Origin: a virus
Virus record (IMG/VR): IMGVR_UViG_3300032224_000787
Location: 1 to 58,339 of that record
Length of the DNA stretch: 58,339 nucleotides
Reading direction: 5' to 3' (one strand)
Part shown: piece after piece, positions 42,856-55,629 of the stretch
Layout: each line of letters opens with the position of its first letter
Position numbering within the stretch: the first letter of the stretch is position 1
Position numbers and translations under genes: made by a program
The notes under the pieces: generated by a model
Told to the model about the DNA's origin: nothing
Database searches by the model: none
What the model saw: the letters and a program-made list of their open reading frames with translations, nothing else

Positions 42856-43395
42856 TTATTCGTTATTTGAGTACTGCTCCTCTAGATCCTCATTTCGTTG
42901 AGGCATACGATCAAATTCTTTTACGCAGTAGAAGAGCTTCTTAATTGTTCCTTTGTAAAAGTATATAGGGTTGACCATGTAGGTTCGGCGATTTTTTTCG
43001 ATTGTAAATCTAATAATATCTTTGGCACAAAGTTCTTTGATGCTACTCATCACAAACTTCATATTCATATCCGTTAACTGTTGGATATCACGCAAACTGT
43101 AATTTTTCAAAGTATTACCGTATCCCATCTGTTGGGTCATAAAGCGCAACATACGATTAGCCGAAGGCTTAACTTGATTCATAATGGTAAGTGACTCAGT
43201 AAAGGTAATCATGTACCTCATCTTTTTCCTACGCAATAAGTTCGCAATGACATCGTCAGCCTGCGCATTATACCCCTCGGCAATAGGAACGAACTCTCCT
43301 CTCTGATTCTTGTAGTACAGATCCAGGCCCTTTACTTTTTGATTGATCACCCTGTCGGCCTCCAGCAGGATTAAGTCGAATACTATGTTGTTCAT
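42856..43395 (-). CDS. RepL-like winged-helix replication protein
   Basis: 179 residues. The central region has a winged-helix pattern (YSLRDIQQLTDMNMKFVMSS recognition part, then KELCAKDIIRFTI) and ends with YMVNPIYFYKGTIKKLF, which strongly resembles the 'yminP-yf-kG' end of RepL-family plasmid replication initiators. Likely binds DNA at the origin or regulates the early region. First residues overlap the HNH gene by four bases. Confidence 0.55.
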   Translation of the reverse strand: MNNIVFDLILLEADRVINQKVKGLDLYYKNQRGEFVPIAEGYNAQADDVIANLLRRKKMRYMITFTESLTIMNQVKPSANRMLRFMTQQMGYGNTLKNYSLRDIQQLTDMNMKFVMSSIKELCAKDIIRFTIEKNRRTYMVNPIYFYKGTIKKLFYCVKEFDRMPQRNEDLEEQYSNNE

Positions 43396-43712
43396 TTCTT
43401 AGATTGTAAATTACGATTCACAATAAGTGAATCCACATTAAGTTTAATTTTCTTTAGGTGTGATATCGTCTGCTTATGTCGGGTATGCTCATAGAATATC
43501 AATCCATTTAGAGCCCTCCCGAATTCAATAACACTCATATCTCCTTTCATCTTATTACAATCTCCACAGGCAGGTACTTTATTTGCATTACTCAACTTAC
43601 CCCCTCTGCTCTTAGGTACTAAGTGATCTAATGTAAAACTATATTCATCAAGAGAAACTTTGCAGTATGCGCAAACATCAAGGTTTACACCGTTTTTACT
43701 ATACCCCCTCAT
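43392..43712 (-). CDS. Small HNH endonuclease
   Basis: 106 residues: CAYC zinc pair, FTLDHLVPKSRGGKLSNANKVPAC core (D-H, then N), then CGDCNKMKGD. This is the complete HNH fold with a four-cysteine zinc site. Such small HNH proteins often assist DNA packaging near terminases, or act as mobile nickases. Overlaps both neighbours. Confidence 0.85.
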   Translation of the reverse strand: MRGYSKNGVNLDVCAYCKVSLDEYSFTLDHLVPKSRGGKLSNANKVPACGDCNKMKGDMSVIEFGRALNGLIFYEHTRHKQTISHLKKIKLNVDSLIVNRNLQSKK

Positions 43713-44232
43713 TTAAAGATTCTTTTAGTTTTTGATTATATGCGTATGCTGCTTTTGTTTCGCAATTAAACCTTCCCATTCTATGTTTTTTCCCATTGAT
43801 TGATATTGATGCAACCCATTTACCTCGAGCCTTGTCAAATGTAACACCAATATAATTGCTGTATTTATTATTTCGGATGGATTTTATTGAGTTGACTCTT
43901 TGAGATGTTACCTGTAGATTAGACAAGTTGTTATTTAATTTGTCTCCATCAATATGATCTATCACTTGTTTCATGCCGCATCGTTCATAGCCAAGAAAGG
44001 TCATAGCTACCAAAGTGTGAATTCTGTACAAGGTATTCTTACCCGTCCATAAGTTAACAGAATAGTATCCCTTATTATTTAATGAAGGTTTTAATATATA
44101 TTCTTCTTTTGGATAAGGTGTATTTTTATTCCAACATAATCTATTCAGACTTTTAACCCTGCCTAAATTACTTACCTGGTATCTAAATTCAAAGCCAGGT
44201 ATATCTCTCCAAATTTCATTGACTGCTTTCAT
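43699..44232 (-). CDS. NUMOD4-HNH-AP2-type homing endonuclease
   Basis: 177 residues. NUMOD4 opening (EIWRDIPGFEFRYQVSNLGRVKSL), HNH core (RIHTLVAMTFLG, then VIDHIDGDKLNNNLSNLQ), then an AP2-like DNA-binding end (SNYIGVTFDKARGKWVASI, KKHRMGRF). This architecture is that of free-standing homing endonucleases. Start lies only five bases after a perfect TATATTTG element, so the mRNA may be nearly leaderless. First gene of the leftward arm. Confidence 0.85.
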   Translation of the reverse strand: MKAVNEIWRDIPGFEFRYQVSNLGRVKSLNRLCWNKNTPYPKEEYILKPSLNNKGYYSVNLWTGKNTLYRIHTLVAMTFLGYERCGMKQVIDHIDGDKLNNNLSNLQVTSQRVNSIKSIRNNKYSNYIGVTFDKARGKWVASISINGKKHRMGRFNCETKAAYAYNQKLKESLNEGV

Positions 44233-44236
44233 GTTG

Positions 44237-44266
44237 CAAATATATAAATTATATTTAAGAAAACAA
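44237..44266 (-). promoter_or_regulatory. Promoter of the leftward arm (TTG-N19-TATATTTG)
   Basis: Minus strand: TTG at 44266-44264, 19 bases, TATATTTG at 44244-44237. Both Bacteroidota elements with correct spacing; the ATG follows after four bases. Confidence 0.7.
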
Positions 44267-45006
44267 GCACTTTGTAGGCACTTCTGTCAGAACAACTTGT
44301 GTATACTTTTTCACATACTAACTTGTTACTAATCAACAACTTACAAATAGTCTCTATATACTGTTTATCTCTACATGATCCTAACAGAATATCATTGATG
44401 CCCATAAATAAGTAATTAGGTGTACGCAGTACTCCTGATTGATTATTGCCGGGATAGTATCAGCCTGTATACTAATCATTTATTTCTATACACACGTCTG
44501 GTACTTGGATAGTACTACTACCCCTCCCCTTTTATATCGGAACTTTTATACAATTTAGTTATATACCTTGTGTCTCCTGGAAAAGTTTCTGTATTTTTTG
44601 AGGTTGACTCAGAATAGTTTCTGTATTTTTTGAGGACTTATACGCCTTAACCCATCCCCTCCCGTTCTCCACCGAAAACTCGCTTGCCAAAGTGCCTCAT
44701 TCTCAGCAACTTAACTATCTTTTATTCAACCTTTAGTTCACGTTCTTTGCCTCATTCGTGGTTTGTTATGTATATACGTATTTATGTGGCGGATATAGAC
44801 ATACATCTAACCTATTTTTACTACTTAATTACGCTAAAAATAGCTACATTTTGTTCCGTTTGTTTGGGTCTTATTCGTTCTAAAAATACCCTTTTTTGTA
44901 CTAAATTCATGTTTTTTATCAATTTGTAAATAACTGATTTTCAGTTAGTTATAATTTCAAGATTACATTTTTTATAATTTTTTATTGAAATTCAAAATTT
45001 AGTTTA
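44245..45006. other. Gene-free divergence region between the two arms
   Basis: About 760 bases between the divergent promoters. It is AT-rich and holds a pair of 20-base direct repeats (44584-44603 and 44616-44635). An 81-codon plus-strand frame inside (44684-44929) has no leader or family and looks random. This is the likeliest place for an origin or control region. Confidence 0.5.
44584..44635. repeat. Two 20-base direct repeats, 32-base period
   Basis: AGTTTCTGTATTTTTTGAGG occurs at 44584-44603 and again, identical, at 44616-44635, three helical turns apart. May be initiator or regulator binding sites. Confidence 0.8.
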
Positions 45007-45014
45007 TATATTTG
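44985..45014 (+). promoter_or_regulatory. Promoter of the rightward arm (TTG-N19-TATATTTG)
   Basis: TTG at 44985-44987, 19 bases, TATATTTG at 45007-45014, matching the divergent leftward promoter in sequence and spacing. An ATG follows two bases later. Confidence 0.7.
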
Positions 45015-45016
45015 GA

Positions 45017-45172
45017 ATGTCATTGAACGACAGCCAACGGGCTTCACATAGTTGCAATGACGGAACGATACGCAGCAATGCACAACGGGCGCAATGCTCG
45101 GCAAAGCTGCAAAGGTTTACGCAATGTTTACCGATACCTTTTATAGGGCGTTTCAAGTTCTTTGAAATATAG
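45017..45172 (+). CDS. Doubtful 51-residue reading frame after the rightward promoter
   Basis: Opens at the ATG two bases after the TATATTTG element and runs 51 codons with three cysteines and many R, Q and S residues. Composition is unlike the neighbouring proteins. The DNA is locally G+C-rich and contains four GCAATG copies, so it may instead be a structured leader RNA or binding-site array. Low confidence. Confidence 0.3.
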   Translation: MSLNDSQRASHSCNDGTIRSNAQRAQCSAKLQRFTQCLPIPFIGRFKFFEI

Positions 45173-45351
45173 TTTAGTAGTTGTTTGCAGCCGTCCGCAA
45201 GGGGAAAAGCAAGCACGCAAAGTTGGACGACCAACAAAACATGGCACATATAAGAGTGCAGCGGGCTAATTTAAGGGATTTACTTTAGCCGTATACATGG
45301 GATTCAAAATGAGATATGTATATAGAAATACTACAAACGAGCTTTAAAAAA
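45173..45351 (+). other. Leader region with small hairpins, before the first ribozyme
   Basis: No convincing gene. Hairpins GTTGG-ACGA-CCAAC (about 45221-45234) and GGCTAA...TTAGCC (about 45264-45289) can be drawn. It would be the 5' part removed by cleavage at 45414. Confidence 0.4.
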
Positions 45352-45420
45352 GGTTAACTGATGAGCTTTTATTAAGCGAAACGTGAGCAAGTTGAAATAA
45401 TTACTTGCTGCGTCTTAACC
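45352..45420 (+). ncRNA. Hammerhead ribozyme 1 (type I)
   Basis: All core parts are in place: stem I GGTTAA (45352-45357) with TTAACC (45415-45420), CTGATGA (45358-45364), stem II GCTT/AAGC with loop TTATT (45365-45377), GAA plus A (45378-45381), stem III ACG/CGT then AGCAAGT/ACTTGCT with a ten-base loop, and the cleavage triplet GTC ending at 45414. Self-cleavage should occur after 45414, leaving a 23-base leader before the histone-like gene at 45438. Stem I is open, hence type I. Confidence 0.93.
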
Positions 45421-45437
45421 ACTTAAATTTTTTTATC

Positions 45438-45824
45438 ATGAATGCAACTACAAAAAACACAGCAACAAAGAAAGCCGCAACAACTACAAAAGTAGTAAGC
45501 GCACCTAAAGCAGCAGCAAAGAAAGCAGCAGCAGCGCCAAAAGTTACTTATCTTGCAGAAGGTGTAACGGGCAAAAAAATGATGCAGTCAATTTATGCTG
45601 CAAACAATGCGCACAAAAAAGATATGGGCAGCTTTAGCCAATGTTTGAAACGTTCTTTAGAATTCGGAAGCGCTGAATTTACCAAAACTATCAAAGGCTT
45701 TGACGTCAAAGATTGCACACCGAAAAACTTAATCCCACTACGTAACGCAAAGCGTGGTGTTGATGCATCATTCAGTGTATACGAAGTATTGATGCTCATC
45801 AAGAAATTCTACCAAACAAAGTAA
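45438..45824 (+). CDS. Histone H1-like lysine/alanine-rich protein
   Basis: 128 residues from the ATG at 45438; an upstream ATG at 45405 lies inside the ribozyme and is rejected. Residues 1-36 form a K/A/T/P-rich tail (KKAATTTKVV, APKAAAKKAAAAPK) like histone H1 tails and bacterial H1-like proteins. Residues 37-128 form a folded, basic domain with two cysteines and no family I recognise. DNA compaction or binding is likely. The gene is bracketed by two hammerheads: cleavage would release a 477-base RNA carrying only this gene. The second ribozyme begins at the base after the stop codon. Confidence 0.75.
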   Translation: MNATTKNTATKKAATTTKVVSAPKAAAKKAAAAPKVTYLAEGVTGKKMMQSIYAANNAHKKDMGSFSQCLKRSLEFGSAEFTKTIKGFDVKDCTPKNLIPLRNAKRGVDASFSVYEVLMLIKKFYQTK

Positions 45825-45897
45825 GGTTAACTGATGAGTCCTAAATGGACGAAACGCGAAGGGGTGTACTATGTATGCCCCTTTTTGCGTCTTAACC
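45825..45897 (+). ncRNA. Hammerhead ribozyme 2 (type I)
   Basis: Stem I GGTTAA (45825-45830) with TTAACC (45892-45897), identical to ribozyme 1; CTGATGA (45831-45837); stem II GTCC/GGAC with loop TAAAT (45838-45850); GAA (45851-45853); stem III ACGC/GCGT continuing as AAGGGG/CCCCTT; cleavage triplet GTC ending at 45891. Stems II and III differ in sequence from ribozyme 1 but keep pairing, strong evidence for selection on the RNA. Cleavage leaves a 22-base leader for the next gene at 45914. Confidence 0.93.
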
Positions 45898-45913
45898 AAT
45901 TAATTATCTACCA

Positions 45914-46090
45914 ATGAAAAAGAACATTTTAATAGCCTTTATAGTATTGGGCTTAATAGGAATACTATGCTCGTTATGGCTCATGATGACCGCACAAGAT
46001 GTAAGCAATTTCAGGCTTTCGTACATAAGCCTATTCGGATGGGGCATTGTGTTCGGGGCATCGGCAATAGCAGAATGTGAAACAAACTAA
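45914..46090 (+). CDS. Small two-span membrane protein, 58 residues
   Basis: Two hydrophobic segments (ILIAFIVLGLIGILCSLWLM and LFGWGIVFGASAIA). Preceded by the ribozyme-2 cleavage leader ending ATCTACCA. Function unknown; inner-membrane location predicted. Confidence 0.6.
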   Translation: MKKNILIAFIVLGLIGILCSLWLMMTAQDVSNFRLSYISLFGWGIVFGASAIAECETN

Positions 46091-54560: not shown

Positions 54561-55562
54561 ATGAAAAAATACATAGTATATAAAATAGTGTTTAGAGAAC
54601 ATATGGCAGTTTATGTTGGGTGTACAAGCAATTTAAAACAAAGACTAAGTCAGCATAGGGAGTGCAGAACAAACACTAGGATCTATAACTTTATTAAAAA
54701 AAATAATTTAGTAGATGATCTTGAGTTAATTCCTGTTGCTTCTTTTAATTCCAAGCGAGAAGCATTGACGTTTGAGAAGAGGTTTATATATAGAGTTAGT
54801 ACAATGACACTATATAACATTTTAAATCAAACGTGGACTAAGGAATGTAAATTCCCTGCCTCTGGACTTAGTGGAGAGTTAAGCAAGTCTTCTAAAGAGT
54901 GGGCCGTATTAAATCTAAAAAGCAAAGAAGTTATGAATGTCATATCTTTGAAGAGCTTTGGTGATAAAAACAACCTTAACTATAAAGATTTGCACGCTTG
55001 CGCATTAGGTAAAATTAATATCTCTCAAGGATATAAGTGCTTTAGAAAATCCGAATGGGATTCTTTTACTGATGAACAAAAAGATTATTACGCTTCTGAT
55101 GACTTCCTTAATAATCTAAAGGAAGTAAAGTCGCAAAAACTTTTTAATGTGAACGCAAAAGAATACATAGTGTTGACTCCTGATGGAGATAAGTTAAATG
55201 TAATTGGTTTAGATAGATACGCTGAATCAAAAGGACTTAACAAAGGTAACCTGGCCTCAACAGCAATGCCTAAAAATTACGGTAAGTATTGTAAAGGCTA
55301 TCGAGCATTTAGAATTAATGATTGGAATAATTTTACACAACAACAAATAAATGATATTTTAAGCGCATCTAAAACCTATCGAATTGCTGGGAAGCCTAAA
55401 CGTAAAGACGTAGGTAATCAGCAGCCAAGCTGTGGAAACACAGAAGGTTCAACGACTATCGAAAGCATGATTGATGAAAGTCAATTAGAAGCGAGTAGAG
55501 TAGGGCACAAGCTATTGGTGTCCGAAGCGGTAGGCATACGTAAGTATGATGATATAGTCTAA
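54561..55562 (+). CDS. GIY-YIG homing endonuclease (intron-encoded)
   Basis: 333 residues. N-terminal GIY-YIG domain: IVYKIVF..., VYVGCTSNLKQRLSQHR (catalytic R), then E in the FEKRFI helix. Two NUMOD-like DNA-binding repeats follow (residues about 120-175 with YKDLHACALGKINISQGYKCFR, and about 200-265 with KGNLASTAMPKNYGKYCKGYRAF), then a basic tail. The reading frame continues through the P, Q, R and S elements and stops one base after S, so the last ~60 residues are encoded by the ribozyme core. It spreads the intron by cutting intronless alleles. Confidence 0.9.
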   Translation: MKKYIVYKIVFREHMAVYVGCTSNLKQRLSQHRECRTNTRIYNFIKKNNLVDDLELIPVASFNSKREALTFEKRFIYRVSTMTLYNILNQTWTKECKFPASGLSGELSKSSKEWAVLNLKSKEVMNVISLKSFGDKNNLNYKDLHACALGKINISQGYKCFRKSEWDSFTDEQKDYYASDDFLNNLKEVKSQKLFNVNAKEYIVLTPDGDKLNVIGLDRYAESKGLNKGNLASTAMPKNYGKYCKGYRAFRINDWNNFTQQQINDILSASKTYRIAGKPKRKDVGNQQPSCGNTEGSTTIESMIDESQLEASRVGHKLLVSEAVGIRKYDDIV

Positions 55563-55629
55563 TCTATATAGAAATATATAGCAGTTTAATAAACGGTTAT
55601 GAATTTAGCGAGTCATAATGAATATAATG

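Follow-up and report, generated by a model that had tools for sequence, protein, structure and literature searches.

The two hammerhead ribozymes that flank a 128-aa gene in this virus (IMG/VR record IMGVR_UViG_3300032224_000787; the window is the whole stretch of 58,339 nt that was analysed) probably act as intercistronic punctuation, cutting themselves at gene junctions so that single-gene mRNAs with short leaders and 5′-OH ends would be released. A long phage transcript would begin near position 45020. Ribozyme 1 would remove its non-coding leader by cutting 23 nt before the 128-aa gene, and ribozyme 2 would cut 22 nt before a 58-aa gene. Each gene would thereby gain its own mRNA, with a 20–30 nt leader and a 5′-OH, and the upstream piece would retain its whole ORF and end in stem-loops II and III with a 2′,3′-cyclic phosphate. 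We infer that cutting takes place in the infected cell. More speculatively, its purpose may be to free translation starts and to protect mRNA ends against host decay enzymes that depend on a 5′ phosphate or a 3′-OH. A single-gene mRNA with a 5′-OH end had been part of the original prediction, and is supported here at the level of sequence.

Structure and setting of the two hammerheads

Ribozyme 1 reads GGTTAA CTGATGA GCTT-TTATT-AAGC GAA (stem-loop III) C TTAACC, and ribozyme 2 reads GGTTAA CTGATGA GTCC-TAAAT-GGAC GAA (stem-loop III) C TTAACC. Both combine the CTGATGA core, a 4-bp stem II, GAAA, a stem III and the cut site GTC, and share the same 6-bp stem I (GGTTAA/TTAACC). They have the CUGANGA…GAAA core and NUH cleavage triplet of type I hammerheads, with three helices arranged round the core and stem I open-ended. 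Coordinates are collected in Table 1.

Table 1. Features of the ribozyme-flanked gene and its surroundings (window coordinates)
Feature	Position	Strand	Remarks
Bacteroidetes-type promoter	44985-45014	+	TTG ... TATATTTG; from motif scan; directed at ribozyme 1
Non-coding leader, ~330 nt	45020-45351	+	structured (fold z -2.6); no good ORF
Hammerhead ribozyme 1, type I	45352-45420	+	predicted cut after C45414
Ribozyme 1 stem I	45352-45357/45415-45420	+	
Ribozyme 1 core	45358-45364	+	
Ribozyme 1 stem-loop II	45365-45377	+	
Ribozyme 1 GAA	45378-45380	+	
Ribozyme 1 stem-loop III	45381-45413	+	
Predicted leader of the 128-aa gene mRNA after cutting, 23 nt	45415-45437	+	5′-OH to ATG
128-aa gene	45438-45824	+	Lys/Ala/Thr-rich N-terminal tail; conserved C-terminal domain of unknown function
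Hammerhead ribozyme 2, type I	45825-45897	+	predicted cut after C45891
Ribozyme 2 stem I	45825-45830/45892-45897	+	
Ribozyme 2 core	45831-45837	+	
Ribozyme 2 stem-loop II	45838-45850	+	
Ribozyme 2 GAA	45851-45853	+	
Ribozyme 2 stem-loop III	45854-45890	+	
Terminator-like hairpin	45861-45886	+	GGGG...CCCC + TTTTT; part of ribozyme 2 stem III; from alignment with L003, L005 and L015
Predicted leader of the next gene after the ribozyme 2 cut, 22 nt	45892-45913	+	
Next gene, 58-aa membrane-type protein	45914-46090	+	preceded by ribozyme 2

A covariance model trained on other phages scores ribozyme 1 at 55.4 bits (E 2.6e-14) and ribozyme 2 at 61.1 bits (E 4.7e-16), and both copies show the full family consensus. 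The core pattern by itself departs only weakly from chance in 58 kb (2 found, 0.49 expected); the full pattern including the GGTTAA stem I occurs twice, with 0.00 expected from shuffled windows. Ribozyme 2 has a fold z of about -4.5. Judging from their sequences, the pair are two real, active-looking type I hammerheads. The original prediction of two complete hammerheads at these positions is thus borne out by core, stems and model scores; its cuts after 45414 and 45891, and the 477-nt RNA that they would excise, agree with the cut sites predicted here, and ribozyme 2 does begin at the base after the stop codon (TAA, 45822-45824).

The Rfam hammerhead search that had been proposed as a check of both segments gave sub-threshold matches only. 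Neither copy is reported at gathering threshold, the best scores being 24 bits for RF03152 (threshold 56.3) and 20.2 bits for RF00163 (threshold 34). Similarly, gathering thresholds recover 0 of 53 family members (the matches of a family model, R1, in 20 loci), and locus L020 has a sub-threshold Rfam hammerhead match like those at the window copies. Since the other members tested fail as well, we ascribe this to the coverage of the Rfam models and not to absence of the fold.

The framed gene had been described as histone-like. This is unsupported: no histone, HU or H1-like match was found, and the likeness of the protein to histone-like proteins is confined to its N-terminal tail. Searches with the 128-aa protein gave no Pfam or PHROG match and, by tblastn against named phages, no match. 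Among PDB profile matches, one to designed PPR repeats (E 1.3e-8) was judged an artefact of a four-sequence profile and rejected, and the others are very weak. The predicted structure is uninformative (pLDDT 38). For the 58-aa protein, matches to membrane families are all sub-threshold.

The promoter directed at ribozyme 1, with which the plus-strand operon begins, points to a transcription start near 45020. Its -7 box, and GGAATGTCA after it, are shared by a related contig (L004). Relatives conserve ribozyme 1 but share little of the intervening leader sequence; the leader is expected to be removed by the ribozyme 1 cut and, once cut off, might be an RNA with a role of its own. Shine-Dalgarno motifs are almost absent from the window (2 of 33 genes). 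Together with the Bacteroidetes-type promoters, this indicates that the host is probably a Bacteroidota bacterium. A TerL search returned distant T4-type matches only.

We note several further features of this region. A second Bacteroidetes-type promoter on the minus strand (44237-44266) mirrors the plus-strand one, both being near-perfect, and the divergent pair parts leftward from rightward gene blocks. Beside this promoter region lie adjacent HNH and NUMOD4/HNH/AP2 homing endonuclease genes (43392-44232, minus strand). Within the leader upstream of ribozyme 1, the motif (GC)AAGTTCTTTGA(AA) at 45155-45167 recurs in the leaders of several relatives, and AGTTCTTTGAAA is found near the start of Tenacibaculum phage Gundel_1 (sites outside the window: L015 10415-10429, the L004 leader and L091); we take the motif to resemble the boxA antitermination element of Bacteroidota rRNA leaders. 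Elsewhere in the window, the stretch of a group I intron (55322-55581, plus strand; RF00028, 88.3 bits) takes in the end of an ORF for a GIY-YIG homing endonuclease (54561-55562).

A family of hammerheads at phage gene junctions

All family counts given here are lower bounds. A search with the GGTTAA stem I pattern found at least 75 loci in viral contigs, in which a structural finder located at least about 108 distinct ribozymes, 1–5 per record, with runs of up to 5 among the matches listed and all copies within a record on one strand. In an alignment of 32 ribozymes, 99.6% of cells are paired, both-sided changes occur in 13 of 15 pairs and covariation is seen in all three stems, figures to be read with the fact that the finder required pairing. 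Since the finder demanded paired stems, the alignment alone is no clean test, and we therefore ran a search blind to stem I, in which the pattern fixes the core, loop II and cut triplet only and the cut site is chosen from stem III alone.

This blind search recovered at least hundreds of phage relatives. Among the matches listed in the first sample, 129 of 131 have a stem I of exactly 6 bp, and 128 of 129 carry an A on both sides of it; with shuffled partners, a 6-bp stem I appears in 13 of 131. A second sample from new scans gave the same picture among the matches listed (exactly 6 bp in 437 of 446, A/A flanks in 437 of 437). There are dozens of stem I sequence types, so it is the length and flanks that are conserved and not the sequence.

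Family members also occur, one each, in the cultured phages Flavobacterium phage vB_FspP_elemoB (ribozyme at MT497068.1:17213-17270, minus strand; cultured with Flavobacterium sp. BAL314), where the predicted cut lies about 26 nt before an ATG, Agrobacterium phage OLIVR1, and the Pelagibacter phages HTVC019P and Jormungand. Genome collections yielded three matches, including ribozyme runs in L083 and L082. A phylum sample of 395 Bacteroidota genomes added no match beyond a known one, in a Niabella MAG. The contigs with runs were binned as Streptomycetaceae and betaproteobacteria MAGs; in these two cases phage contigs have probably ended up in the wrong bins, one proteobacterial and one actinobacterial.

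The placement of these ribozymes is precise. They lie between operon genes on the coding strand, often in runs. The upstream stop codon coincides with the edge of the ribozyme or falls slightly within it, and the most frequent cut-to-ATG distance is 22–26 nt. Among the matches listed, the median distance from cut to next ATG is 23 nt in the GGTTAA set, 22 nt for the 96 leaders of that set without a Shine-Dalgarno motif, and slightly longer, 26 nt, for 61 leaders of the blind set with one (against 22–23 nt where it is lacking), which fits a leader just long enough for ribosome loading. A stop at the ribozyme edge together with an ATG 15–40 nt past the cut was found in 74 of 94 members of the GGTTAA set and 76 of 106 of the blind set (72–79%, among the matches listed), and the ATG placement alone in 324 of 422 of the second sample (among the matches listed). 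Internal stops at -6, -10 and -20 were considered as strong evidence and rejected, since the motif itself supplies them in its three frames. For the same reason, the naive null was replaced by random insertion of the same ribozymes on the same strand, which gave the joint placement in 131 of 2000 cases (6.6%).

Most of the genes at these junctions are short and match no family; among those that do are genes for ArdC-like anti-restriction proteins, GP88 and a MazG-like protein. Exactly one ORF lies between neighbouring ribozymes in 58 of 120 pairs and then in 96 of 216 pairs (among the matches listed). Such one-ORF pairs are common and can be explained by a junction rule, under which every ribozyme goes with the junction ahead of the next gene. 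To regard a matched pair around one gene as an unusual unit is not supported, since about half of all neighbours bracket a single ORF, runs reach 5 among the matches listed, and three of the five lineages with the 128-aa gene have ribozyme 1 only.

Intercistronic processing is further supported by published work on comparable prophage hammerheads in tandem, which cleaved themselves in vitro and, in one threefold array, in E. coli (PMC3088659). Against it we count the scarcity of ribozymes in these phages, most of whose gene junctions lack one (1–5 per record, among the matches listed). A more elaborate possibility, which we consider unlikely but worth stating, is that cutting depends on translation of the upstream gene, making the ribozyme a translation-coupled RNA switch in many phage groups. 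The upstream stop codon lies within stem I, the core or loop II, or on their border, so that a terminating ribosome would cover and unfold the ribozyme, and release of the next gene's short-leader mRNA would be set by how heavily the upstream gene is translated.

Relatives of the 128-aa gene and competing explanations

Relatives of the 128-aa gene were found on four viral contigs (70–75% identity, best segment), and a further relative in L015 (67% over 91 aa), giving five lineages: the window, L003, L004, L005/L006 and L015. Ribozyme 1 is present in all five, and ribozyme 2 in the window and L004 only. Ribozyme 1 is therefore the steadier element. In addition, the stem III loop of ribozyme 1 (within 45381-45413) carries GAAATAATT, invariant in all five lineages, within a variable stem.

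These relatives bear on several claims of the original prediction. Conservation of structure stands: both copies persist in L004, where changes in stem III compensate one another, and covariation extends across the family. The same ribozyme-gene-ribozyme unit was to be sought in related phages; L004 has it, whereas L003, L005 and L015 have ribozyme 1 only. Disrupted cores in relatives that keep the gene had been named as refuting evidence, and here the outcome is divided. L005 has a CCGATGA core in ribozyme 1, stem II of L003 begins with a C-A mismatch at its base, and three lineages are without ribozyme 2; L004 keeps both copies. With ribozyme 2 absent from three lineages and lesions in the ribozyme 1 of two of these, the gene does not require that both ribozymes be intact.

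Alignment of L003, L005 and L015 reveals a stand-alone hairpin followed by a T-run where ribozyme 2 would be, which places the gain or loss of ribozyme 2 around a 3′ hairpin. In the window, the corresponding hairpin and TTTTT lie within stem III of ribozyme 2. It is conceivable, if improbable, that ribozyme 2 combines a terminator with a ribozyme, such that most transcripts would end at the stem III hairpin and T-run, and read-through alone would complete the ribozyme, be cut and supply the next gene; the 3′ end of the 128-aa gene transcript would be nearly the same by either route. However, stem III pairs part of the T-run, a pattern tool calls no terminator there, L004 has only TTTCG at this position, and most family members have a short stem III and no T-run.

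The pair might also excise the gene as a 477-nt RNA that self-ligates into a circle in the manner of retrozymes, a fate that the original prediction had raised and that we regard as very unlikely. Closure is possible in the window because the stem I strands are identical: the 5′ TTAACC could pair with the GGTTAA of ribozyme 2 and rebuild a hammerhead across the junction. Among single-ORF pairs with differing stems in the first sample, 6 were forward-only and 0 reverse-only (among the matches listed). A directional test, fixed beforehand and repeated on new loci, asked that the 5′ end of the unit pair with the downstream stem I, and gave 2 forward-only against 3 reverse-only cases, with 25 of 36 differing-stem single-ORF brackets pairing in neither direction (both among the matches listed). 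L184 alternates two incompatible stems, and across phages neighbouring ribozymes agree in their stems no more than relatedness would explain. The absence of ribozyme 2 from three of five lineages counts against a circle as well, and prophage tandem hammerheads gave no detectable spliced or circular products (Perreault et al., PMC3088659). Joining into a circle is therefore permitted in the window and unsupported as a general function of the family.

Finally, the hammerheads might play no part in gene expression and be inactive remnants or mobile RNAs that merely hitch-hike. This agrees with the lesions in two relatives, the three lineages without ribozyme 2 and the mostly small genes of unknown function involved, but is highly improbable in view of compensatory changes, a stem I of exactly 6 bp and a precise position relative to start codons at no fewer than hundreds of phage junctions.

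Relation to known hammerheads and significance

The arrangement in the window is a known one. Perreault et al. described in 2011 multiple hammerheads flanking single prophage genes and proposed a role in transcript processing (PMC3088659). The prophage and metagenome type I hammerheads of that work share with ours the core, the topology, the clustering of copies around single genes or short blocks, and the proposed conversion of phage transcripts into single-gene mRNAs. In contrast to them, the subfamily described here is sharply defined by a 6-bp stem I, A/A flanks and a TNANT loop II, with no pseudoknot evident, and spans the interval from the stop codon to about 22–26 nt before the next ATG. 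In the part of the literature covered, we found no description of this strict 6-bp A/A subfamily or of its stop-to-start geometry.

Hammerhead_1 (RF00163), Hammerhead_3 (RF00008) and RAGATH-1-hammerhead (RF03152) of Rfam share the core and general fold, but the members of this family all fall far below their gathering scores. The HHphage of haloviruses HF1 and HF2 is likewise a hammerhead of a lytic prokaryotic virus, located 13 nt upstream of a start codon, and its authors related a transcript 5′ end to the cut (PMC3088659). It differs in having core insertions, and its close relative HHmeta is salt-dependent, whereas the window copies have a standard core. Retrozymes and other self-circularising RNAs (PMC4918200, PMC7229834) resemble the pair in that hammerheads flank an excised RNA. 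Compared with these, the window has a coding insert, no retroelement features were noted in it and its ribozymes are fitted to gene borders, and neighbouring stems in the phage family are not matched to each other.

A 2017 review (PMC6155905) treats the role of prokaryotic hammerheads as an open question. The strict order of stop, ribozyme, 20–30 nt leader and start, repeated at no fewer than hundreds of junctions, makes this question of function concrete and testable. Since Rfam thresholds miss a common phage ribozyme family, annotation based on Rfam undercounts its members. The geometry rule predicts exact 5′-OH ends, and the elemo, OLIVR1 and Pelagibacter phages offer cultured places in which to look for them.
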